Shown: positions 1,463 through 11,155 of the stretch, piece by piece | Layout: each line of letters opens with the position of its first letter | How positions within the stretch are numbered: position 1 is the stretch's first letter | DNA from: a virus | Strand: one strand, 5' to 3' | IMG/VR virus record: IMGVR_UViG_3300013101_000098 | Span: 1 to 23,752 of that record | Length of the DNA stretch: 23,752 nucleotides | Made by a program: the position numbers and the translations under genes | Notes under the pieces: generated by a model | What the model was told of the DNA's origin: nothing | The model's input: the letters and a program-made list of their open reading frames with translations, nothing else | Database searches by the model: none

Positions 1463-1750
1463 TTATTTATCACTTTGAGTCACTTTTATTTCCAAATCAT
1501 ACACAAAACCGTCATCTAATTCAACCTTAGCCACATATCCCTGGCCTGTTGCATTCAAAGTGTGGAAATCTACAAAATGTGGGTTCTTACGCATTGCACT
1601 GAAAAACTTAAAGGCACTCGTACCACTATCGGGTTCTTCGTTGTATATGCCGCGTTTTTTCGTATCGCCGAGTGTTGCTGGGGCCACTGCAATGCTTCCT
1701 GCACTAGTGCCGCCTGCACTTGCTGTTTCTTTTATATCAGTTAGTCGCAT
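1463..1750 (-). CDS. Small protein with capsid-targeting-like N-terminus
   Basis: A 95-aa protein starting MRLTDIKETASAGG. The first eight residues fit the shape of a T4 internal-protein capsid-targeting sequence (Met-basic-hydrophobic ... I-x-E, then a small residue). Next comes a low-complexity segment (G-G-T-S-A-G-S-I-A) and a C-terminal domain with an F-V-Y-D-L-E-I-K-V strand-like end. The ATG overlaps the end of the preceding gene by 14 nt, so it is translationally coupled and is the last gene of the late operon. The stop codon lies inside a late-promoter element. I do not recognise the family. Confidence 0.72.
   Translation of the reverse strand: MRLTDIKETASAGGTSAGSIAVAPATLGDTKKRGIYNEEPDSGTSAFKFFSAMRKNPHFVDFHTLNATGQGYVAKVELDDGFVYDLEIKVTQSDK
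1465..1471 (-). promoter_or_regulatory. T4-late-like promoter element GATAAAT
   Basis: Minus-strand GTGATAAATAAAAG overlaps the last codons of the 1463-1750 gene and lies 56 nt upstream of the ATG at 1409. Confidence 0.45.
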
Positions 1751-2042
1751 GTTTTCGTTTTCTCCAAATGTCTGATAATTCTTTCATCTCTGCTCTTAGT
1801 ATATTTTCGTACAGGGTCAGCAATTGTTTTGCTGCTGCACTATTTGTTCGGGAGAAGGGTGCGTGTGTAGACTTTAATAAACGCAAGGATGACTGGGCGT
1901 CTTTTAAGTTTTGTATTCGGCCCTTTGCTACCTTCTCTAGTGTCTCCAGGTCCACACTGGCGTACATATCTTCCAATTCGGCACGGGCTACATCGCCATC
2001 GTAGCTAATACCCATGTCTCGTTTCATTTCACTAAGGCGCAT
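1737..2042 (-). CDS. Hypothetical helical protein, MRL-type N-terminus
   Basis: A 101-aa, mostly alpha-helical and charged protein beginning MRLSEMKRDMG. It shares the M-R-L-x-(E/D) start of its neighbours but lacks a clear I-x-E cleavage-like site. The ATG directly follows the TAA of the 2043-2432 gene (TAAATG), and its end overlaps the next start by 14 nt, so it belongs to the same translationally coupled operon. No family or motif recognised. Confidence 0.7.
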   Translation of the reverse strand: MRLSEMKRDMGISYDGDVARAELEDMYASVDLETLEKVAKGRIQNLKDAQSSLRLLKSTHAPFSRTNSAAAKQLLTLYENILRAEMKELSDIWRKRKHATN

Positions 2043-2432
2043 TTAGCCTCCTACTAACTTACCATGCTTCAAGTAACTATCGGGCTTGTCCTTCATTGTT
2101 GCTTGGATGCCCTGTGCACCAACAGCATTGCCGCCTTCGTGCATTCCGTTTACTTCATCGGTAATCTGTTCGGCATCACTCTGATTTAACCACGTTGCCA
2201 CCTGTTCTCCGTTGTCTGCAAATACTGCATATATGCCCATCTTATCGACGCGGCGAGATGTCCACGGTGCAGGATAGCTCTCGTTAGGGCCAAATGCCTT
2301 AGCTATTACCCTGTCTCCGACTCCGCGAAAGCCTTTTGCTTTATATTCTCTGTCTGTCTCTTCGCCTGCTTGGTGTTTTGCCTGGAGGGTCGGTGACGAC
2401 ACATTCTCCACTATAATATCATTTATTTTCAT
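2043..2432 (-). CDS. Hypothetical protein with capsid-targeting-like N-terminus
   Basis: A 129-aa protein starting MKINDIIVENVSSP. The I-V-E followed by Asn at residues 7-10 matches the shape of T4 gp21 prohead-protease sites (hydrophobic-x-Glu, then a small or polar residue). The mature part would begin at about residue 10. It contains an R-V-I-A-K-A-F-G segment and a likely strand G-I-Y-A-V-F-A-D-N-G-E-Q-V-A, then a Gly-rich end. The ATG overlaps the preceding nucleotidyltransferase gene by 14 nt. Function unknown. Confidence 0.72.
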   Translation of the reverse strand: MKINDIIVENVSSPTLQAKHQAGEETDREYKAKGFRGVGDRVIAKAFGPNESYPAPWTSRRVDKMGIYAVFADNGEQVATWLNQSDAEQITDEVNGMHEGGNAVGAQGIQATMKDKPDSYLKHGKLVGG

Positions 2433-3276
2433 GTTTGTCCTCTATATACTGTTGTATCTCTTGGGGATAATTCCACTCTACCTTGCCAATGTCGTGGTGT
2501 GCCAAGAAATTACGGGCCATTTGTTTAAATATGTCTTCCTGGATCTCAACATCATAAATCTGTGTGATCATCTTAATAATAGACTCTGCACTATTCAGAT
2601 CATCTGCTGTTCCTTGTCCTTTGAATAAGATTTCTGCAATCTCATCTGCATCCTGCACAGCATCTGATAAAATCTCTTCATCCTGTTTTTTAATACATGT
2701 ATCTGTGCGTGTATTCCATCTGCTTGTCCTGAATACCCTTACCAGTCCGTCCCTTGGAGACCACTTGTATCGTTTTAGCTGTACCGGGCGTTCATAATCA
2801 TCTAATATATTAGATGCTTGTCTATTGGTAAATCCTGCAAGTGTTGCAATGGCAATATTACGATGAGTTCCTTTTAGGGCAGACTCTTCTTCGGCAGGCG
2901 AATGAAAATACAACTTGTACCAGTCTTTGTTGCCGAACATGTAATCAACTTGCACCCATCCTGTGCGGGGTTGCCTTGCATCACTATGTTCTTCGTACTT
3001 CTGAATGGGAACCTTTGTTGTTATCAGTGCTCCAATCTTTCGTACACCGGTCTCACCAAATGCTGTTTTTAATTTATTTACAAACGCAACCATTTCCTCA
3101 GGAGAACGTGGCTCAACGACTAAATCTATGTCGCCACTGTATTCCTTCTTGCCAACAGATCCAAGGGCACGGCCGTGAATATCTGTCAACTGCGTTTTAA
3201 GCGCAATATAATCCAGTGTTGGGGAAATTTCATCTTTATGAATTGTTCCAACATCTGTAAATGCATTACCACCCAT
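2419..3276 (-). CDS. Pol-beta-superfamily nucleotidyltransferase
   Basis: A 285-aa protein. Residues 39-52 read G-S-V-G-K-K-E-Y-S-G-D-I-D-L: the Gly-Ser followed by Asp-x-Asp is the metal- and nucleotide-binding signature of pol-beta-type nucleotidyltransferases, a superfamily that includes CCA-adding enzymes, aminoglycoside nucleotidyltransferases and MNT toxins/antitoxins. A further acidic position, in W-V-Q-V-D-Y-M near residue 120, could be the third carboxylate. The C-terminal half is helical. The ATG at 3276 has GAGG about 9 nt upstream and lies 11 nt after the preceding stop. It shares an operon with a ligase-fold protein, which suggests nucleic-acid end processing, but the substrate cannot be told from sequence. 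Confidence 0.78.
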   Translation of the reverse strand: MGGNAFTDVGTIHKDEISPTLDYIALKTQLTDIHGRALGSVGKKEYSGDIDLVVEPRSPEEMVAFVNKLKTAFGETGVRKIGALITTKVPIQKYEEHSDARQPRTGWVQVDYMFGNKDWYKLYFHSPAEEESALKGTHRNIAIATLAGFTNRQASNILDDYERPVQLKRYKWSPRDGLVRVFRTSRWNTRTDTCIKKQDEEILSDAVQDADEIAEILFKGQGTADDLNSAESIIKMITQIYDVEIQEDIFKQMARNFLAHHDIGKVEWNYPQEIQQYIEDKHENK

Positions 3277-3286
3277 TACACTAACC

Positions 3287-3499
3287 TCATATAATATTTA
3301 CTTTAAGATCCTTAATGATGCTTTTATAATTTCCAACTAACCGATCACCTTTGTCCCACATCGACATAATCTGATCCTTAGCAGATCGTGCATTCTTGTT
3401 ACCAACGCCATCAACTTTAAGATCATGTATCAGTTTATTATATTGCTTAGATGATAGATCTAAATCCTCAATTGTTTCTTCTAATTCGTGTAGTCTCAT
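3287..3499 (-). CDS. Small protein with capsid-targeting-like N-terminus
   Basis: A 70-aa protein starting MRLHELEETIEDL. L-E-E followed by Thr fits the prohead-protease-like pattern seen in three neighbouring proteins. The rest is helical and lysine-rich, which would suit a DNA-associated internal head protein. The ATG overlaps the TGA of the ligase gene (ATGA), so translation is coupled. No family recognised. Confidence 0.68.
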   Translation of the reverse strand: MRLHELEETIEDLDLSSKQYNKLIHDLKVDGVGNKNARSAKDQIMSMWDKGDRLVGNYKSIIKDLKVNII

Positions 3500-4956
3500 A
3501 GTGTACTCAACTGTCTCCCGGCTAACAATTTCACAAGGTCGTCGTGATCCTCGGCTTTATTGGTGCCCTTCTTAAAATTTTCTAATTGATTAAATAGCAT
3601 CGTAAATACCTGTAACGTTCTTGCATCAATCTCTTCATCGTACTTAAATGTACGAGTATGATTGCCAAGTTTAACATGTAATACCTTTGATCCTTTTTCA
3701 TCGTTGTATTTGTCTAACTCTCCCATCAACTGTTCTTCTTTGGAATTTATGTATTCCATCCAGTACTGTTTCACTTCATGAAAATTTGATGTGTGATCTA
3801 GCTTTGCTAAAATATCCACAGGTGTATCACCGTGCTTCTTTAAATATCGTTTTGCTTGTGTGGTGCCGAGCTCTGGGTGTCCTATGGCACTTGCTAAACC
3901 ATGTAACACTTTTCCTATAAACGATTCTATCTTGTGCACCGAAGTTGGCTTCTCTGATAAGTCTTTTCTTACTTGCCACATAAAATCCTTTGCAAGGGTA
4001 AACATATCTTTATCAATAATTTTAAACATCGAGCCAGTATCTTTGTGCTTAAATACAACACCCTCTATCCAGCCGCCATCTTCAATCTCTGGTCCAAACG
4101 CACTTTGTATCTGTCTCACAAGATGATTAAGCAGGGTCTCCTTTATCCCGGACACAAACCCTGGGCGACTCTCTGCGCCCCTTGCATATATGTGTGACTT
4201 AATCTCATCTCGCACAGCCTTAACCTTTTGTTTTATATGTTTCCAATCTTCAACATCAAGTTCTGGTGGGCGGCGGTTTAGTGGTATCGCTAGTGCTTCT
4301 GCATTAGAGAACTTCCATACACCAGATGGTTCAGCTAAGTATTTTTCCAACTGATCCAACTCGTCGTTTACTCTTTCAAGAATATCGCCGTCTATGATAT
4401 CATTTGCATCATAGGTTGGAGTCTTAGCAAACGTCCATATGTGCTCTTCAGGTATAATTCTAACAGATTTACCGTCTAATGTATACGGTGCTTCTAAATT
4501 AATTGTAATGGTTTCACCATCCAGTGATTCTTTAAGCTGATCTAATTCAACTTCACCGGTTATTACTCTTAGAAAGATAATTTGATTTGTTTCGCCGGAG
4601 TATGGCACGGCGTTTGGTAATTTTCCAAACAACACTTCTGCCTCGACTTGGTCTCCCGTGCTAAGACCATATTTTTCCATAATTGGTAATACTGCCTCTA
4701 ACGCAAGGTGGGCCGAACGCTGAAAGGTTGTAGAAAACTGTACGGCATATTCTTCAACATCATGCACACGCTCTCCGCCCTTTGTTTCTCGTGTTGTGTA
4801 GAAGCCATGGTTATCTATGCCAAACCTAATATTACTTCCGTCGACCTTTTCCGATATTTCATATTGGTCAAAATTACGAAGGGCATCAATAAAATCGTGG
4901 ACAGCCAAATCTTCCACGTGGGTTATTCCCTCAGATATAACTTGTTCAAATCTCAT
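3496..4956 (-). CDS. ATP-dependent-ligase-fold protein (DNA/RNA ligase family) with capsid-targeting-like N-terminus
   Basis: A 486-aa protein with the motifs of the covalent nucleotidyltransferase ligase family: motif I K-V-D-G-S-N with the candidate AMP-accepting Lys37, a motif III-like D-Q-V-E-A-E-V-L-F-G near residue 103, motif IV E-G-V-V-F-K-H near residue 300, and motif V F-K-I-I-D-K just after. The C-terminal third is extra and helical. The start, MRFEQVISEG followed by I-T-H-V-E-D-L, recalls a group of uncharacterised ligase-like proteins in marine T4-like phages that open with a short tag and a T-H-x-E-D segment. The tag has I-S-E before Gly, like a T4 prohead-protease site. It lies directly upstream of a nucleotidyltransferase gene. 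DNA versus RNA substrate is undecided. Confidence 0.78.
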   Translation of the reverse strand: MRFEQVISEGITHVEDLAVHDFIDALRNFDQYEISEKVDGSNIRFGIDNHGFYTTRETKGGERVHDVEEYAVQFSTTFQRSAHLALEAVLPIMEKYGLSTGDQVEAEVLFGKLPNAVPYSGETNQIIFLRVITGEVELDQLKESLDGETITINLEAPYTLDGKSVRIIPEEHIWTFAKTPTYDANDIIDGDILERVNDELDQLEKYLAEPSGVWKFSNAEALAIPLNRRPPELDVEDWKHIKQKVKAVRDEIKSHIYARGAESRPGFVSGIKETLLNHLVRQIQSAFGPEIEDGGWIEGVVFKHKDTGSMFKIIDKDMFTLAKDFMWQVRKDLSEKPTSVHKIESFIGKVLHGLASAIGHPELGTTQAKRYLKKHGDTPVDILAKLDHTSNFHEVKQYWMEYINSKEEQLMGELDKYNDEKGSKVLHVKLGNHTRTFKYDEEIDARTLQVFTMLFNQLENFKKGTNKAEDHDDLVKLLAGRQLSTL

Positions 4957-5507
4957 AGCTTACGGCGCCTTCCTAATCGCGGAGATAATATGCTATTAAA
5001 GAATTCATACAAAGAATTCTTACTACGAAAATCAATACTATTTCTTACATCCATTCTCTGGCCAGTTGCTTTTGATAATTCATGTCCGGCAGCGGCAAGT
5101 GGTGGTTCCGGATTATCGCCCGGGTGTCCGAAACGTGTATCATCGATATCTGTGTCAACATCATCAACAGGAACTCCAGTGTTCTCTGGTGCCAACTTAT
5201 CGACCATTATCTGAAATATATCTTTAATTTGTCTATTTGTCAATGTTTTTTCGAGAAGAACAGATTCAGTTAAGTTCTCATTCATCCACTGGAGGATCTC
5301 ATCCTCATATCCGTTCTTAACAATCATGCCTGCTAACTTTGATACATTGCCCGATGGTTTTGCTGCTGGTTTTTCTTCAGGCTGGGGCATCTCTTCTGCG
5401 CTGGGTTCTTCTTTGCGACTGTTGTATGCATTTTTGGCGCGACCCATTAAATTCTTAGCAAGCCAGCGAGACGGTAGTTCGTTTAATTGTTGTTTATCCT
5501 GCGGCAC
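4953..5507 (-). CDS. Hypothetical protein, GTG start
   Basis: A 184-aa protein. The likely start is GTG at 5507, with GGAG 8 nt upstream and a 14-nt overlap with the preceding gene. The N-terminal third is basic, followed by a Pro/Glu/Ala-rich linker (about residues 34-52), a helical segment, and an acidic D-D-V-D-T-D-I-D-D stretch near residue 120. The C-terminus ends in a basic L-G-R-R-R-K-L. The mix of charged disordered segments resembles internal or scaffold-type proteins, but no family is recognised. A strong sigma70-like promoter sequence lies inside it. Confidence 0.68.
   Translation of the reverse strand: MPQDKQQLNELPSRWLAKNLMGRAKNAYNSRKEEPSAEEMPQPEEKPAAKPSGNVSKLAGMIVKNGYEDEILQWMNENLTESVLLEKTLTNRQIKDIFQIMVDKLAPENTGVPVDDVDTDIDDTRFGHPGDNPEPPLAAAGHELSKATGQRMDVRNSIDFRSKNSLYEFFNSILSPRLGRRRKL
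5215..5243 (-). promoter_or_regulatory. Sigma70-like promoter inside the 4953-5507 gene
   Basis: Minus-strand TTGACA (5238-5243), exactly 17 bp, then TATATT (5215-5220). It would start transcription about 250 nt upstream of the ligase gene. The spacing and -35 equal those of the three intergenic promoters of this class, but a coding-region location makes chance possible. Confidence 0.4.
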
Positions 5508-5820
5508 GTTCTAACTCCGATTTCAGTTGTTGCTGTTGTTCGGGTGTCAGTTTATCCTTTATCATTGTTTTCAGTCTACCAACCTGTTCCCTGCTTTTGT
5601 CTGTTAGTGGACTAGTTGAGCGTGATACAATGCTGTTTATCTCTGACATTAATTCTTGGTCTATGGTAACATCGGTGGTGTTTCTTACGTACCCGAGTAT
5701 GAAATCCAACACATGACGATCCTCTGGTGTGTTGCCATCATTAGATGGAGTTGCTAGTCCCTTCGTCTTGGCATAAGTCAACCAAGCATCTACCATGTCT
5801 AATATTGCATCATCTGCCAT
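5494..5820 (-). CDS. Hypothetical helical protein
   Basis: A 108-aa protein, MADDAILDMV onward, predicted mostly helical with a Gln-rich C-terminus (K-L-T-P-E-Q-Q-Q-Q-Q-L). The ATG at 5820 overlaps the end of the 5810-6070 gene by 11 nt, and its own end overlaps the next gene by 14 nt. It is part of the coupled operon that begins at 6070. No motif or family recognised. Confidence 0.68.
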   Translation of the reverse strand: MADDAILDMVDAWLTYAKTKGLATPSNDGNTPEDRHVLDFILGYVRNTTDVTIDQELMSEINSIVSRSTSPLTDKSREQVGRLKTMIKDKLTPEQQQQLKSELERAAG

Positions 5821-6070
5821 GTTTGCTCTCTTTTACTTTCCGTATGGATCGTTTAAATCGTTCGGGATCCTGACCCTTTATGCTACTCAGCAATCGTCGT
5901 TTTAGTTGTTCTGCATCTTCTTGACTATAGCACTCTTCTATTGTTTCCATTAAAAATATAACAGAGGAAATAACGTGATGCGCCCGCATCTCTATTAAAT
6001 CTTCTTTATTCTTCTGGGGAACATAGTTGCTAATTTCGTGCAGAATACCGGTTGTTTTATTATCACTCAA
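5810..6070 (-). CDS. Small conserved marine T4-like phage protein, TTG start
   Basis: An 86-aa helical protein with the pattern R-A-H-H-V-I-S-S-V-I-F-L then Y-S-Q-E-D-A-E-Q-L-K-R-R-L-L-S-S-I and a basic C-terminus. It resembles a small protein conserved in marine T4-like phages whose role is not known. The start is TTG at 6070, with GAGG 8 nt upstream; no ATG is available before residue 41. It is the first gene of the operon running to 1463 and lies 22 nt downstream of a late-type element. Confidence 0.68.
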   Translation of the reverse strand: MSDNKTTGILHEISNYVPQKNKEDLIEMRAHHVISSVIFLMETIEECYSQEDAEQLKRRLLSSIKGQDPERFKRSIRKVKESKHGR

Positions 6071-6091
6071 GTCAGCGTCCTCGTTTCTATT

Positions 6092-6098
6092 ATTTATC
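6092..6098 (-). promoter_or_regulatory. T4-late-like promoter element GATAAAT
   Basis: Minus-strand AAGATAAATAATAG lies just after the gp41 stop codon and 22 nt upstream of the TTG at 6070. It is in the right place to drive the operon from 6070 down to 1463. Confidence 0.5.
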
Positions 6099-7496
6099 TT
6101 AATCCATGCTCTTTAAGAGAGACCGCAATGCCGTTGCCTTATTGGCTGTGTCCGACGGAGCGTTGTTAGTGGGTGGTGCTGATGTTACTACACTCTTCTT
6201 CTTTAAGTTATCCATAATGTTCTTAGTCTGGGCTTCAACTGCGCCATCTGCATCTTCGTCTAAATCGCTAATTCTTAGTGTCTTTGGACTAAATGCCAGA
6301 TCTACCTTGGAACCCACACCTGCACTAGAACGTGTCTTCATAAACTGTATCTGGTATCTGCCTGCTTCTTTCATGGACATTGTTGTAAAAATACCAATAA
6401 CATTATCTGCTGTGTTTACTTTGGATATACCCCCTGCAATGTGACTTGGGTCAAATTCAATCTCTTCGTATGATCCTCTGTTAAGCTGTGATGCCGATAC
6501 CATTAGTGCATTAAGCTCAACTGCAACATTCCTCAGTTCCTCAGAGACATATTTGTCCTTAACAAACTGATCAGTTGGAGAAATACGTGTGTTCAGTGGC
6601 ATCATTAAATCTAAGTAGTCAACTAATATACCATCTACCTTTATACCACTTTGTATTTCATATTCTCTTACATATGCTCTAATATCGTTTGCTGTGCAGC
6701 CACTTGGCATCTGCTTTAAGCGAAGATTTCCTTTGTGCTTCTTCTTGTACGATACCACCTTCATTGCTACATCTTCGATGTTGCGCATCACCGATGTTGT
6801 GTCATATCCCGTGACCATAGCGTCTATTCTCATGCCCGTTAACTTCTCACTGAGCTCTAGGGTTATGTACACTATGTTCAGTCCAGCAGTTGCCCAGTTT
6901 ACGGCTAAATTCTGAAGGAATAAGCTCTTTCCTGCGCCACTCTGTCCAGCAAATATTGTTATCTCACCACGGTTGAAACCACCATACAATTTATGGTCAA
7001 CATCACGCCAGCCAGTTGATATCATGCCACTGTTATCACGAATGGCCTCGAGTCTTGTCAGTGGATCATGGAAATAATCTGTTCCTAGATCCTTAACCAA
7101 TCCGATCTGAACAGCTTCTTTAATCTTCTCTTCTACTTCACCGTAATTACCCTCTTCGAGTAAATCAGGAGAGCTAAGTATGGCTCGCTCAAGTGCACGG
7201 TGACGTGAGAATGTTTCAAATTCGTCAAGGAACCAGTTCTCGTGTTTTGCAACTTCCGCTGGCTCAATTAATTCTAACCGTTTCTTTGTCTCGATGTAAA
7301 TTTGATCAAGTGTTGGTAACACAGAATACTTAGCGGTGTATTCATTTATGTATCTTACTACATTACTATTCTGTGCGTTGTGAAATAGCTGGTGATCTAA
7401 TATCGATATGCACCTAACTAATAAATCTGTATCACTAACTAAAAACCTTATATAATATTCTTCTTTGTCATCGTCGTATGTTACTGTATCTGCCAT
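6099..7496 (-). CDS. 41: Replicative DNA helicase (T4 gp41-like, DnaB family)
   Basis: A 465-aa protein of the hexameric DnaB/gp41 family, which unwinds DNA 5' to 3' ahead of the replisome and works with primase. Walker A is G-Q-S-G-A-G-K-S at residues 184-191, followed by a Walker B-type I-L-V-D-Y-L-D-L-M and the S-A-S-Q-L-N-R motif of the RecA-like ATPase core. The N-terminal 150 residues form the helical domain expected in this family. Length matches T4 gp41 (475 aa). It lies just after primase gp61 (9 nt gap), as helicase and primase often do. An AAGGAG is present about 13 nt before the ATG. Confidence 0.95.
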   Translation of the reverse strand: MADTVTYDDDKEEYYIRFLVSDTDLLVRCISILDHQLFHNAQNSNVVRYINEYTAKYSVLPTLDQIYIETKKRLELIEPAEVAKHENWFLDEFETFSRHRALERAILSSPDLLEEGNYGEVEEKIKEAVQIGLVKDLGTDYFHDPLTRLEAIRDNSGMISTGWRDVDHKLYGGFNRGEITIFAGQSGAGKSLFLQNLAVNWATAGLNIVYITLELSEKLTGMRIDAMVTGYDTTSVMRNIEDVAMKVVSYKKKHKGNLRLKQMPSGCTANDIRAYVREYEIQSGIKVDGILVDYLDLMMPLNTRISPTDQFVKDKYVSEELRNVAVELNALMVSASQLNRGSYEEIEFDPSHIAGGISKVNTADNVIGIFTTMSMKEAGRYQIQFMKTRSSAGVGSKVDLAFSPKTLRISDLDEDADGAVEAQTKNIMDNLKKKSVVTSAPPTNNAPSDTANKATALRSLLKSMD

Positions 7497-7505
7497 CCGT
7501 GGTGT

Positions 7506-8537
7506 TTACTCCTTGTAATGTTTACTCATCTTCCATTTGAGTTCTATTGCTACTGGATTTTGTTCGTCTGATTCAATTATAGAATGCAAGGTTAACAATC
7601 GTCCGTATTTTTCTACTGCTTTGGCAGCGTCCTTTGTATCATCTCCCCATTTAGGAAAACATACGTGCCATCCTTCTTTCAGTGCTACATTAACTAACGG
7701 GGTTCCGTTTTTGTCTTTGTCAGGACAAACAATTACCGTCTTTCCTAGACTATTAATTATTTGTATCTGTTCTGCGTTTAGTGTGTTGCCACAAGTACTT
7801 ATACCGTCTATGAAGTATGCATCAAATATTCCTTCATTTAGTATAACATATTTACGGTCGAAATCGTACTGAGCATCTAAGTTGTAAATATAGTCCGAAG
7901 GCATGTAATTTAAATACTTAGGAACTTCCTTAGAAGGCGGGTCACCATAATATCGACCAGTATATCCTACTATTTTATTCTTGTAATAAAACGGAAGAAT
8001 TAATCGCTTATTAAATGTTCCTGCTTTCCCGGGTGTCCAGTACAAATTCTCAAAATCTGTAAATTTCCTTGCCGCTGCATACTCTACTACTTTAGCAAAC
8101 TCTACATCGCTGCACTCATTGTCAATCCACTCGGTGATCGGTAATGCACCATCGGGCAATGCCATGGGTTTCCAACTTCGTGTGACAATTCCCCTTATTT
8201 TTATCTCAGGGGATGCTTCTACTTTGTTCTGAACCTTAAATAATTCAAAGTTTATCTTTTTGATATCGTGCTGAGTAACACCAATCTCTCTAAGGAACGA
8301 TTCGAACTTTTTACTGAAGGTAGAACCCACAACAAACTTAGCATCAAATCCACAATTGAAACAATTAAGTGCAATGTTGCCTTCGGGTGTAAATAACACA
8401 CCGAATCGTTTGCGGCGATCAGCAGATTCACCACGAGTATGACACATCATGCAATCGCGGCGCATCCAACCTTTTGGTGATTTTTTAAGAGGTCCTAAGT
8501 TCTGAAGGATCAGGTCTTTGACAATATCTTCTATCAT
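7506..8537 (-). CDS. 61: DNA primase (T4 gp61-like)
   Basis: A 343-aa protein matching T4 gp61 in length (342 aa). The N-terminal zinc-binding region has C29-x2-C32 and C59-x2-C62. A TOPRIM-type core follows, with V-I-L-N-E-G-I-F-D-A (catalytic Glu) and V-I-V-C-P-D-K-D-K (Asp-x-Asp). Primase makes RNA primers for lagging-strand synthesis with helicase gp41, encoded next. The ATG at 8537 is preceded by a strong sigma70-like promoter so close that the expected transcript start lies only about 6 nt upstream. Confidence 0.94.
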   Translation of the reverse strand: MIEDIVKDLILQNLGPLKKSPKGWMRRDCMMCHTRGESADRRKRFGVLFTPEGNIALNCFNCGFDAKFVVGSTFSKKFESFLREIGVTQHDIKKINFELFKVQNKVEASPEIKIRGIVTRSWKPMALPDGALPITEWIDNECSDVEFAKVVEYAAARKFTDFENLYWTPGKAGTFNKRLILPFYYKNKIVGYTGRYYGDPPSKEVPKYLNYMPSDYIYNLDAQYDFDRKYVILNEGIFDAYFIDGISTCGNTLNAEQIQIINSLGKTVIVCPDKDKNGTPLVNVALKEGWHVCFPKWGDDTKDAAKAVEKYGRLLTLHSIIESDEQNPVAIELKWKMSKHYKE

Positions 8538-8549
8538 AATTATACCTCA

Positions 8550-8578
8550 AGTATAACATAATAGACATTTACTGTCAA
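8550..8578 (-). promoter_or_regulatory. Sigma70-like promoter for primase/helicase
   Basis: Minus-strand TTGACA (8573-8578), 17 bp, TATACT (8550-8555). The -35 contains the TGA stop of the upstream structural gene. Predicted start of transcription is near 8543, leaving a leader of about 6 nt before the ATG at 8537. Confidence 0.75.
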
Positions 8579-9465
8579 GATCGAACGAGTATCTTTTCTA
8601 TCTTGCCTGGCTCGGTAACGAGGTGACTTGGAGTGTATCTAAACTTAATAAACATAATATTAGCAGCAAAGGTAAATGCTTCCGTGCCGTAGAAGTCCAC
8701 AAACTCTAATACATCTGTTCCAGGGGCCACTTGTATGCGGAACCAACCATGGTCGTTCGGATATGGTTCGGGTGACACATCCAGGGTACCTAAAACTTCC
8801 AATGTTCCTGTGAACTTGTCGTCCTCTAATGCCATTACTGAAAAACTGTGAGTACTGTTTGTGTGATTCTGTACTCTGGCTCCGGGGATTGCCGAACTAT
8901 ATAACTGATCAATAACAGGACCATTGCCTTGCCATAGTAACTTAGTAAATGTCCAGTCGTCTGCTGTTATCTCATATGTAGGCTTCGGTACACGCTCTGC
9001 CTGTGGTGTAATTTCCAACGAAGCAACAATGTTACTTGCATAATCAGTAAAAAACGGAGTAGTCACGGACTCGCCGACTGTCTGGTTATGTATAAACGGA
9101 CGTTGTCCTACTATAACCAAATCGTATAATCCGTGTGCAAGGTTAGTAATGTCGCCTTCGTTTAAATCCAACGACACCATGCCCTTCGCACCACTTGTAG
9201 TACATAGTTTTTCTAGGACAAGTTCACGGTTTTCTACATTAAAGATTCTTGCATACAAATTATAGGTGCACACATTAACGGGAGTACGGTCTGGATCAAA
9301 TACACGAAATTTAATGGAGTTATCGACCCCTTTATGAATTAGTATGTTGCGTTTATTCATTGGCGAATTGTCCGTATCAAAACACGTTATCGTGTTGTCG
9401 TTAATCAGTAACCGTCTAACATCATCATATAGAAACAGTTCGTGTAATGAGTTATAAGTATGCAT
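8575..9465 (-). CDS. Putative virion structural protein
   Basis: A 296-aa protein with beta-rich composition. A segment N-S-I-K-F-R-V-F-D-P-D-R-T-P-V-N near residue 50 and a L-N-E-G-D-I-T-N-L-A-H-G-L-Y-D-L-V-I-V block near residue 105 resemble structural proteins of marine T4-like phages with an Ig-like or baseplate/tail-type fold. The C-terminal part has alternating strand-like stretches. It is preceded by a late-type element 32 nt before the ATG and sits alone among replication genes, consistent with separate late expression. The exact place in the virion is unknown. Confidence 0.7.
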   Translation of the reverse strand: MHTYNSLHELFLYDDVRRLLINDNTITCFDTDNSPMNKRNILIHKGVDNSIKFRVFDPDRTPVNVCTYNLYARIFNVENRELVLEKLCTTSGAKGMVSLDLNEGDITNLAHGLYDLVIVGQRPFIHNQTVGESVTTPFFTDYASNIVASLEITPQAERVPKPTYEITADDWTFTKLLWQGNGPVIDQLYSSAIPGARVQNHTNSTHSFSVMALEDDKFTGTLEVLGTLDVSPEPYPNDHGWFRIQVAPGTDVLEFVDFYGTEAFTFAANIMFIKFRYTPSHLVTEPGKIEKILVRS

Positions 9466-9496
9466 TATTTATCATTATTCCTGTTGATTTTTAAGT

Positions 9497-9503
9497 ATTT
9501 ATC
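9497..9503 (-). promoter_or_regulatory. T4-late-like promoter element GATAAATACTT
   Basis: Minus-strand GAATTGATAAATACTT lies 32 nt before the ATG at 9465. A second copy of the core (GATAAAT, 9467-9473) runs into that ATG and is too close to be its promoter under T4 rules. Confidence 0.6.
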
Positions 9504-9532
9504 AATTCTTTTCCATTCAATCATTTATATTA

Positions 9533-9541
9533 TATAAATAC
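9533..9541 (+). promoter_or_regulatory. Consensus T4 late promoter TATAAATAC on the plus strand
   Basis: This site carries the exact T4 late core TATAAATA (9533-9540), followed by C and then the ATG at 9548. T4 late transcripts begin a few bases past the core, so the mRNA would start at or next to the start codon. Confidence 0.65.
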
Positions 9542-9547
9542 ATTATA

Positions 9548-9916
9548 ATGGAATTAAATGACATACAAGAAAATTTTCCTTTTTTAAGTTGTGTTCGTTG
9601 TCAGGATAACGAATACATCGGAATCATTCAGAACCACGATGACAAGATCATGAGCTTTTATGATTTCGATGTAATTAACTCAAGTAAGGAAAAACAGCAA
9701 TTCTTAAAGTATGGTGATACGTGGTGGTGGGAAAGTAACAGATTATTACCCATTAATGTATTTTTAACAGGAAAGATGAGACCATACCGGTATTGTCTAA
9801 AAACAGTTGCAATGAAAGATGTCACTGTTGAGTTTGGGCCTATTACAAGTTTGAATAACCTGATAAAGAAGCGCATTAAAAAACGACAAATACAACTTAT
9901 TAAGAAAGTTACTTAG
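9548..9916 (+). CDS. Conserved-type hypothetical protein, the only plus-strand gene
   Basis: A 122-aa protein, MELNDIQENF onward. A central G-D-T-W-W-W-E-S-N-R followed by L-P-I-N-V-F-L is distinctive and recalls a small protein seen in other marine T4-like phages. The C-terminus is strongly basic (K-K-R-I-K-K-R). It is transcribed against all neighbours: it diverges from the structural gene at 8575-9465 and converges on the DnaE-like gene, whose stop it overlaps by 8 nt. No ribosome-binding site is seen before the ATG; the late promoter core ends 7 nt upstream. The stop codon is TAG. Function unknown. Confidence 0.75.
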   Translation: MELNDIQENFPFLSCVRCQDNEYIGIIQNHDDKIMSFYDFDVINSSKEKQQFLKYGDTWWWESNRLLPINVFLTGKMRPYRYCLKTVAMKDVTVEFGPITSLNNLIKKRIKKRQIQLIKKVT

Positions 9917-10487
9917 ACGCTTGTTCAGTTAATAAGTTTAATTGTACCACAATTGCCATCGCATATGAAATTGCGTGACCACGTTTAAATACGTATGAGC
10001 CGTCTCCGGCTTTTAACCACACTTCTCTCTTTATTTTATCCCACGGTTCGTCCCATAGATACTTCTTCGATGGACGGATCAGGGCCAATACCATAGCTAA
10101 TTCTTCAACTGACTTGGGTCGTAACTTATTCACCAAATTAAAGTACGAATTAATATGAAACAATTCCTCAACAATACCACGAGATTCCAATAACGTCCAA
10201 TCGGGTTCTTTCATTAAATGTACAAGGTGTGCTTCATCTTGGACTTCTTCGTATAGGCTCACATTAAGCATGTCGACTTTGAAATATCCGATATCCTGTG
10301 CTGTCTTATAATCAATGTTGGCCTGGTTGGTAAATGGATCTTTGGGGATATCTTGAAAATACACGCCGGTGTTATGTTTCTCAGTTTTATGTATACGAGC
10401 TATTGTGCCGGCTGCATGTTGCAATCCGCTTAGAACAAGATCTCTGTCGGCGAAGTCGATGTCTACGTCAAAGTCAATTTTACTCAT
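9909..10487 (-). CDS. Mini-DnaE: collapsed bacterial DNA polymerase III alpha-like core
   Basis: At 192 aa it is about one sixth of E. coli DnaE (1160 aa), yet it keeps DnaE landmarks in order: D-V-D-I-D-F at residues 7-12 (compare P-D-F-D-V-D-F, which holds catalytic Asp401 and Asp403), K-H-N-T-G-V at 37-42 (compare K-H-A-G-G-V), F-K-V-D-M-L at 69-74 (compare V-K-F-D-F-L with Asp555), F-H-I-N-S at 110-114 with P124 and A-L-I-R-P at 135-139 (compare F-Q-L-E-S ... A-L-F-R-P), and F-K-R-G-H-A-I-S-Y-A at 167-176 (compare F-N-K-S-H-S-A-A-Y-A). The PHP, thumb, OB and tau-binding regions are absent. Similar short proteins appear to occur in other marine T4-like phages as hypotheticals. Whether it is catalytic is open. 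It overlaps the zinc-finger gene upstream (ATGA). Confidence 0.72.
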   Translation of the reverse strand: MSKIDFDVDIDFADRDLVLSGLQHAAGTIARIHKTEKHNTGVYFQDIPKDPFTNQANIDYKTAQDIGYFKVDMLNVSLYEEVQDEAHLVHLMKEPDWTLLESRGIVEELFHINSYFNLVNKLRPKSVEELAMVLALIRPSKKYLWDEPWDKIKREVWLKAGDGSYVFKRGHAISYAMAIVVQLNLLTEQASK

Positions 10488-11155
10488 AATCCTGCTGCCT
10501 CTAATGCACCTGCTATAAACTCCTTATCTTCGGCATTTTTCATTATACGGGCTTTCCATACACCAGGATTAATTATTGTTTCTATCATTGCATATTGTTC
10601 GTCATTGAACTTATCCCACATCGTGTCTGCGCTTGCTGACAAATACAAGACCCATGGACTTACCTTCCCCGTCTTTATGAAATATGCTGCTTCCGATGGT
10701 GTTGCTAATCTAAAGAAATCACTATATGCACAATCATTGTCTGTGCCCCATTTATTTAAAAATATAATGGTGCGCTCCAGTGCTCTGTCGGGCGGCTCTC
10801 TACGCATATAATCTTCAAGGTATGTTTCATATACATAATCCTTCGACCAGTCATTTAACTTAACACCATTCTTTATCACAAAATCAACAAAGTCATTGCA
10901 ATTAATCGGATCTAATTCTACTAGGTGTCTTCCGAATTTTACAAATGCAATGTAGTATTTGCTATCTATAAAATCATCAAATGTTTTTACTTTTTTAGAA
11001 TTTGTAGTGAGTTCGTAAAAGCGTTGGAACACACGAAACCCCATCCTGGAACCAACAGAATCTTTATCTGTCACTCGCCTCTTTTTCGGACACATGTGAC
11101 TAGACAAGGTAGATTCTTTTCTGAAATCTTTACTACAATATTTACAAACCGGCAT
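10484..11155 (-). CDS. C2HC zinc-finger protein of marine T4-like phages
   Basis: A 223-aa protein that opens with C4-x2-C7-x12-H20-x-C22 followed by K-K-R-R, a compact zinc-finger and basic patch suited to nucleic-acid binding. The remaining 195 residues are mostly helical and contain a Y-Y-I-A-F-V-K-F-G-R segment. The family appears conserved among marine T4-like phages near replication genes, with no assigned function. It lies between gp62 (6-nt gap) and the DnaE-like gene (ATGA overlap), so a replication role is likely by context. Confidence 0.78.
   Translation of the reverse strand: MPVCKYCSKDFRKESTLSSHMCPKKRRVTDKDSVGSRMGFRVFQRFYELTTNSKKVKTFDDFIDSKYYIAFVKFGRHLVELDPINCNDFVDFVIKNGVKLNDWSKDYVYETYLEDYMRREPPDRALERTIIFLNKWGTDNDCAYSDFFRLATPSEAAYFIKTGKVSPWVLYLSASADTMWDKFNDEQYAMIETIINPGVWKARIMKNAEDKEFIAGALEAAGL

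Follow-up and report, generated by a model that had tools for sequence, protein, structure and literature searches.

Candidate capsid-targeting propeptides on a late operon with a ligase-like protein in a fragment of a T4-like virus

The window analysed here is the complete 23,752-base IMG/VR record IMGVR_UViG_3300013101_000098, a virus fragment whose nearest relatives are metagenome records, and the system in question is a minus-strand run of genes at positions 1463–6070 that adjoins a helicase gene. Four proteins of this run start with a similar tag of 8–9 residues (a slash marks the predicted cut): an ATP-dependent ligase-like protein of 486 amino acids (aa) (3496–4956; tag MRFEQVISE/G, 4930–4956), a 70-aa protein (3287–3499; MRLHELEE/T, 3476–3499), a 129-aa protein (2043–2432; MKINDIIVE/N, 2406–2432) and a 95-aa protein (1463–1750; MRLTDIKE/T, 1727–1750), all four tags being present at the starts of the open reading frames (ORFs) as the sequence-only reading of this DNA had described them. 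Each satisfies the rule for a capsid-targeting sequence (CTS), namely a short N-terminal leader ending in L/I-x-E, with the sites I-S-E, L-E-E, I-V-E and I-K-E, respectively. We put at roughly 80% the probability that the operon encodes virion cargo and that these tags are its T4-style capsid-targeting propeptides: the run would be a late operon making phage-head cargo, the tag would dock each of the four proteins on the prohead core, and a gp21-type prohead protease would then remove it by cutting behind hydrophobic-x-Glu, so that the mature bodies would begin with G, T, N and T, respectively.

The T4 leaders target the internal proteins (IPs) and Alt and are cut after L/I-x-E, residues 4 and 7 serving for targeting and residues 8 and 10 for cutting, while Asp at position 10 stops cutting, not targeting (PMC9026906). 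A fifth protein of the run (101 aa, 1737–2042), which starts with MRLSEMKRD and had been set apart as sharing only the start of the tag, proved not to be an outlier: its only homologue found, in the metagenome locus L296, starts with MKLDEVTKRD, the tag core being kept and Asp standing in place of the cleavage Glu. In line with the T4 rule for Asp at position 10, this protein may be targeted and left uncut.

The tag motif at gene starts

The pattern M-(K/R)-x5-7-(I/L)-x-E, proposed earlier for a genome-wide check, showed no enrichment at gene starts in any of five genomes (T4, PA5oct, Atu_ph07, G002 and G001), and a looser form, M[KR]x3-7[ILVMF]xE, gave only a weak excess in the same comparison. 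A corrected motif, M[KR][ILVFWYMAT]x[DEQN][ILVMF]x(1-2)E, drawn after inspection of these five genomes, was then counted at start codons versus protein-internal M[KR] sites, which gave 20/151 vs 0/295 in Atu_ph07, 11/90 vs 2/204 in G002, 5/16 vs 1/44 in G001, 3/64 vs 0/129 in PA5oct and 2/60 vs 0/129 in T4. With the motif frozen, the new genome G014 showed it at 8/79 starts vs 0/207 internal sites, a level reached by 0/500 shuffles, and the first 400 of 469 kb of Phosso showed a weak excess (3/62 vs 1/222; 0/500 shuffles). The frozen motif was absent at starts in phiKZ (0/33) and SPO1 (0/17), both of which are without a match to the gp21-type protease family PF03420. The gene caller matched the annotated starts in 26/26 cases checked in PA5oct and 17/21 in Atu_ph07. 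Among all candidate starts of the 140 ORFs (at least 40 aa) in the window, the corrected motif picks out exactly the four tags, against a rough Poisson expectation of 0.036 (P ~7e-8); since it was drawn after these four had been seen, the weight rests on the other genomes.

The tagged bodies are unrelated to each other, as had been claimed for the operon: the tags fall into as many families as there are tags in G002 (11/11), G014 (8/8) and G001 (5/5), while the 20 tags of Atu_ph07 represent 8 families, one of which has 13 members. The residue following the Glu, which lies outside the motif, is G/A/S/N/T in 36/50 tags compared with 74/285 internal sites with the same motif (27/38 tags when one Atu_ph07 paralogue is kept), and this position therefore also fits a protease site.

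Removable leaders, prohead protease and late promoter

The second enzyme of the operon, a DNA polymerase beta-like nucleotidyltransferase (2419–3276, start M/GGNAF), allowed the junction between leader and body to be read across relatives. The best 80 of 298 relatives were kept, and the GG start was readable in 77/80, giving 50 distinct contexts: Glu precedes GG in 49/50, Leu or Ile stands two residues earlier in 49/50, and Gly follows the cut in 50/50. Ahead of this constant junction the leaders differ greatly in length: the shortest have 4–6 residues (MLTE, MTILSE), MNLFELTQSKAAQSEVISE is intermediate, and in 13 loci the leader is an open frame of 141–973 residues. There is no leader in the window, PA5oct, Phosso and Atu_ph07, where the body begins directly at M/GG or M/SG, so that the Leu-x-Glu lies outside the nucleotidyltransferase fold. 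In three loci (L271, L273 and L276) the ligase and the nucleotidyltransferase are one protein with E/G before each body. Glu was present at the nucleotidyltransferase start in 7/9 loci with a ligase Glu (window included) versus 4/17 without it, as read by eye; this count excludes loci nearly identical to others, those in which the nucleotidyltransferase could not be read, and L254, because of an unreadable frame. The leader of the ligase differs among its relatives and is missing from some. In the predicted structure of the window ligase, residues 1–8 have a predicted local distance difference test (pLDDT) score below 50 and the remainder is well predicted (mean 89.4). Placement of the tag within a conserved folded domain, named earlier as an outcome that would refute the idea, is thus not what the ligase model shows: the tag is disordered there. 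The sequence data lend good support to the view that the tags have the properties of removable propeptides at the N-terminus, with a gp21-type site (hydrophobic-x-Glu, then a small residue) at their end.

The 2012-aa open frame of L293 (6660–12698) contains nucleotidyltransferase and ligase and, by eye, also lytic transglycosylase, kinase-like and HIGH-type nucleotidyltransferase parts. Long proteins in L361 (6003–8798), L312 (5730–8789) and L368 (6276–8795) start with MRITEVD, MRIFEVD or MRINEVD, carry an 'EFTRHFL' domain and repeats, and end in a C-terminal nucleotidyltransferase after TLNE/GG or VLNE/GG, with a phrog_23027 match in L361; the 'EFTRHFL' domain is a separate tagged gene in L296.

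A search for the prohead protease and its sites, also proposed earlier, succeeded in larger records of the clade and not in the window fragment: a gp21-type protease (PF03420) is encoded in PA5oct, Phosso, Atu_ph07, G002, G009, G013 and G014, while five other records (49–130 kb) lack it. By position, the capsid proteins have FLVE/N in PA5oct and MLRE/S in G002 at the place of the T4 gp23 cut, which we take to be FLTE/A. In PA5oct, G002 and Atu_ph07 a small tagged gene occupies the position of T4 gene 67, with the portal-like gene on one side and the protease on the other, and in PA5oct its product is annotated as structural by mass spectrometry (MS). The MS data for PA5oct are the annotations in its record, where 93 coding sequences (CDS) carry an electrospray tandem MS (ESI-MS/MS) flag.

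The claim that a late-type promoter heads the operon was borne out by an exact GATAAATA on the minus strand at 6091–6098. Upstream of genes this element is 30-fold more frequent than inside them in G001, 37-fold in G002 and 53-fold in PA5oct, compared with 30-fold for TATAAATA in T4, and the PA5oct genes with an upstream GATAAATA are MS-annotated in 17/27 cases vs 75/338 of the rest. With a slightly looser tag motif, the tagged genes lying downstream of GATAAATA in the same run amounted to 17/17 in G002, 7/9 in PA5oct and 7/9 in G001, while for the other genes the numbers were 239/469, 108/356 and 33/72, respectively.

The two enzymes, virion annotations and operon layout

In the ligase family, K37, D39, G40, E107, E298 and K312 are invariant (alignment A4), motif I being KxDG. 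The window protein matches Pfam RNA_ligase (PF09414) with E 2.1e-4 and 21.9 bits, under the cut-off of 27, and 19/20 family members match it as well (E up to 0.01). The fold of the model is nearest to RNA ligases (Naegleria RNA ligase: Z 9.8, root-mean-square deviation (rmsd) 3.5 over 189 residues), while DNA ligases match at lower Z (7.9 or less). By its KxDG, conserved residues and fold, the protein belongs to the covalent nucleotidyltransferase (ligase) superfamily. In the nucleotidyltransferase, D49, D51 and D111 are invariant in 21 sequences (A5) and by analogy would be the catalytic Asp triad of the DNA polymerase X family, and the fold matches Pol lambda/Pol beta (Z 9.0; to Pol lambda rmsd 3.7 over 181 residues); triad and palm fold together place this predicted enzyme in that family. 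None of 21 family members matched RlaP at E up to 0.01 in Pfam, which presumably contains an RlaP model. Single-sequence searches with either enzyme in viral_contigs gave no close relative, the relatives being found by alignment-based searches, and no sequence-level relatives of either are present in the PDB, where three ligase matches (E 0.033 to 0.72) were unrelated proteins. A nucleotidyltransferase relative occurs in the fetched flank of 30/45 ligase loci and a ligase in 4/80 nucleotidyltransferase loci; the nucleotidyltransferase is therefore common without this ligase, and the pairing is a trait of one part of the family. The earlier description of the ligase as an end-joining enzyme is too specific, because the ligase fold is RNA-ligase-like and the nucleotidyltransferase fold Pol beta/lambda-like, making RNA and DNA ends both possible. 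As modelled, the two would suit a pair for end healing of RNA or DNA.

Evidence on virion content is available for PA5oct and Atu_ph07. In PA5oct, genes with the strict tag are MS-flagged in 3/3 cases vs 89/362 others, and in 6/9 when the Glu is allowed up to 8 residues later; at the locus matching the operon gp258, gp257, gp254, gp253, gp252, gp251 and gp250 are flagged, while gp256 and gp255 are unflagged. For Atu_ph07, 131 virion proteins have been reported, 29 of them from the cluster CDS 31–76 (PMC6102473), and 12 of the 20 tags fall within this cluster of 47 called genes, compared with 8 among the 768 genes outside, 11 of the 12 being paralogues. The Pfam names of the tagged Atu_ph07 proteins are all below cut-off, so that 'ART' denotes no more than a resemblance in the case of the YRGM paralogues. 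A tagged protein of this phage (290373–290885, MKWQDLSE/GIKVYHGS) has a sub-threshold match to ART-PolyVal (E 3.8e-4) and is a possible Alt-like injected enzyme. A run of 434–782-aa proteins with unrelated bodies was seen in G014 (28988–38998), starting with MRYQDFLAE, MRYSELIEN, MRYNEIIES and MRYNELIEN; the two tested had no clear Pfam match.

Neighbouring ORFs of the window operon touch each other or share a few bases. The product of the first gene (5810–6070; 86 aa) belongs to a family of virion proteins (phrog_11854 'virion structural protein', E 2.6e-23). It is followed by a 108-aa protein (5494–5820) with homologues in L296, L297/L256 and G001, and by a 184-aa protein (4953–5507) with homologues in G001, L297/L256 and, weakly, L257; for the latter, a role in Mu Gam-like end protection (phrog_2205, E 0.0029), which would have completed an end-joining trio, was dropped since the match was not seen in the G001 and L296 homologues. 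The 70-aa tagged protein is a homologue of PA5oct gp254, annotated as structural by MS (alignment A3), and its homologues start with MRLSEIKKPVDE/N and MRIDEVTEQAVDE/G. Homologues of the 129-aa and 95-aa proteins in L296 begin with MKINDILNE/G and MRIKDIKE/SASMG, respectively, and the 95-aa protein has a TASAGGTSAGSIA stretch past the predicted cut and a phrog_17311 match at residues 1–22. A second exact GATAAATA (1464–1471, minus strand) heads genes of the MTQKVNG family, one of which (945–1409, also on the minus strand) lies downstream of the cargo genes; at the matching place PA5oct has gp250 and gp251, starting with MTQKIHG/MVQKVHG and both annotated as structural by MS. Elsewhere in the window are T4-type genes that we take from their translations to be primase, helicase, UvsX, UvsW, gp32 and terminase.

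Just 5' of the nucleotidyltransferase start, at 3276–3290 on the minus strand, the window reads ATG AGG TTA GTG TAA (MRLV and a stop), possibly the relic of a lost tag. In L296, the closest syntenic relative, 8/9 adjacent genes at 5663–11109 start with the tag or the tag core, the ninth being endolysin-like (phrog_315, 1.4e-34). An ORF on the plus strand of the window (9548–9916), which starts with MELNDIQEN, was rejected as a chance resemblance because its PA5oct homologue runs through this stretch as part of the body.

Weighing of the explanations and comparison with known systems

A number of results weigh against the packaging scenario. The ligase homologue of PA5oct, gp256, which is the closest cultured one, is without an MS flag and its leader is without the Glu; among the ligase relatives, where the body start was seen in 43/45 loci, Glu precedes the body in only 10/31 distinct contexts, and a large branch has the leader MIINEIS[KR]/G without Glu, its nucleotidyltransferases mostly being without it too. 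The window nucleotidyltransferase itself is untagged, and the untagged PA5oct nucleotidyltransferase gp253 is nevertheless annotated as structural, so that the tag is not the sole way in. The MS set of PA5oct includes ribonucleotide reductase and thymidylate synthase and hence contains some cell proteins as well. In RaK2, in spite of its gp21-type protease (PF03420), the frozen motif is not enriched (2/137 vs 1/232, reached by 68/500 shuffles), and the 23.7-kb fragment has no PF03420 gene. Finally, the corrected motif misses the internal proteins of T4, the general layout alone being common to the tags and MKTYQEFIAE with no sequence match, and one of the two motif matches in T4 (114914–115327), which we take to be UvsY, probably arose by chance. 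Of the earlier proposal of T4-type targeting to a shared virion destination, the propeptide-like sites, the unrelated bodies, the late promoter and the protease of the clade speak in favor, while the unflagged PA5oct ligase homologue speaks against; on balance, we consider the ligase of the window virus probably packaged in the virion.

Three other explanations were considered. Coincidence, by which K/R-rich starts and common hydrophobic-acidic patterns would mimic tags, could appeal to the lack of significant enrichment of the literal pattern in five genomes; the result of the frozen motif in G014 and the excess in Atu_ph07, G002 and G001 leave it close to refuted. The shared starts might instead be an N-terminal helix or a motif for docking between proteins, used perhaps in tail or replication assembly, with the Glu as a part of the motif and not a cut site. 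The ligase branch that keeps its leader without Glu would suit this, as would the presumed UvsY of T4, albeit as a probable chance match; we nevertheless hold it to be quite improbable, as the leader can be missing or reach several hundred residues with the Leu/Ile-x-Glu/Gly-Gly junction retained, small residues predominate directly after the Glu, and the ligase model shows this segment as disordered. Less remote, though still unlikely, is that the tags are cleavable prohead propeptides and that the ligase and nucleotidyltransferase act in the head or during assembly, e.g., by healing nicks or ends in the course of packaging, and are not injected: all the operon evidence bears on the head and on late expression. 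The T4 precedents with such tags, Alt and the IPs, are injected (PMC9026906, PMC12373910), and the tagged proteins of Atu_ph07 include the ART-PolyVal match, albeit below cut-off.

Together, the ligase and the polymerase beta-like nucleotidyltransferase probably form a pair of end-repair enzymes that would enter the cell with the DNA. More broadly, and with somewhat less than an even chance in our estimate, T4-like marine and jumbo viruses may preload their heads with an end-healing kit of these two enzymes, either separately tagged or as one polyprotein cut by the prohead protease at hydrophobic-x-Glu/Gly. The kit would act from the moment of entry, its targets being host tRNA that has been cut or else gaps and ends in the incoming genome, and the cut-site rule would make the injected proteome readable from sequence. 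The injected proteins of large phages are mostly unknown and hard to measure, and a tag readable from sequence together with a cut-site rule would make it possible to list candidate effectors that uncultured T4-like viruses inject, a repair pair being among them in the present case. Restriction enzymes are blocked by the injected IPs of T4, and use of the leader to find IP genes is a long-standing idea (PMC12373910). In the literature searched, with few subscription papers covered, neither tags of this kind in the clade nor a tagged ligase nor ligase–nucleotidyltransferase polyproteins were reported.

Among known systems, the RNA ligase and RlaP pairs of jumbo phages (PMC7824862) are similar in having an RNA-ligase-like enzyme beside an enzyme of the polymerase-beta superfamily, but the window nucleotidyltransferase has no RlaP Pfam match and its fold is Pol beta/lambda-like. 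The polyvalent proteins of phages and plasmids (PMC5512222) are likewise multi-domain delivered proteins, comparable with the long L293 frame; they have been likened to viral polyproteins without prohead-protease-type sites being shown in the accessible text, whereas interdomain junctions of that type belong to the viruses studied here. The inner-body and ejection proteins of phiKZ and SPN3US are also head cargo processed after Glu by a diverged gp21 relative, but their propeptides are mostly long (>100 residues in several SPN3US proteins), and the phiKZ starts show no such tags.

In T4 itself, gene 61.1 (NC_000866, 18966–19130; 54 aa), beside the primase gene 61, has a CTS-like start, MKTFKEFIKE/D, and in the window a primase–helicase pair adjoins the cargo operon as gene 61 adjoins gene 61.1. 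The closest comparison is with T4 IPI–IPIII and Alt, which share with the window operon a short leader on unrelated bodies, the L/I-x-E site, a gp21-type protease (in the clade of the window virus) and a T4-type late promoter, some homologues of the operon proteins being virion-annotated. In contrast to T4, the tag of the window has 8–9 residues with an M[KR]-hydrophobic-x-[DEQN]-hydrophobic core instead of MKTYQEFIAE, its cargo includes a ligase beside a polymerase-beta-like enzyme, and the relatives of the window virus have up to 8/9 adjacent genes tagged, as well as polyproteins.

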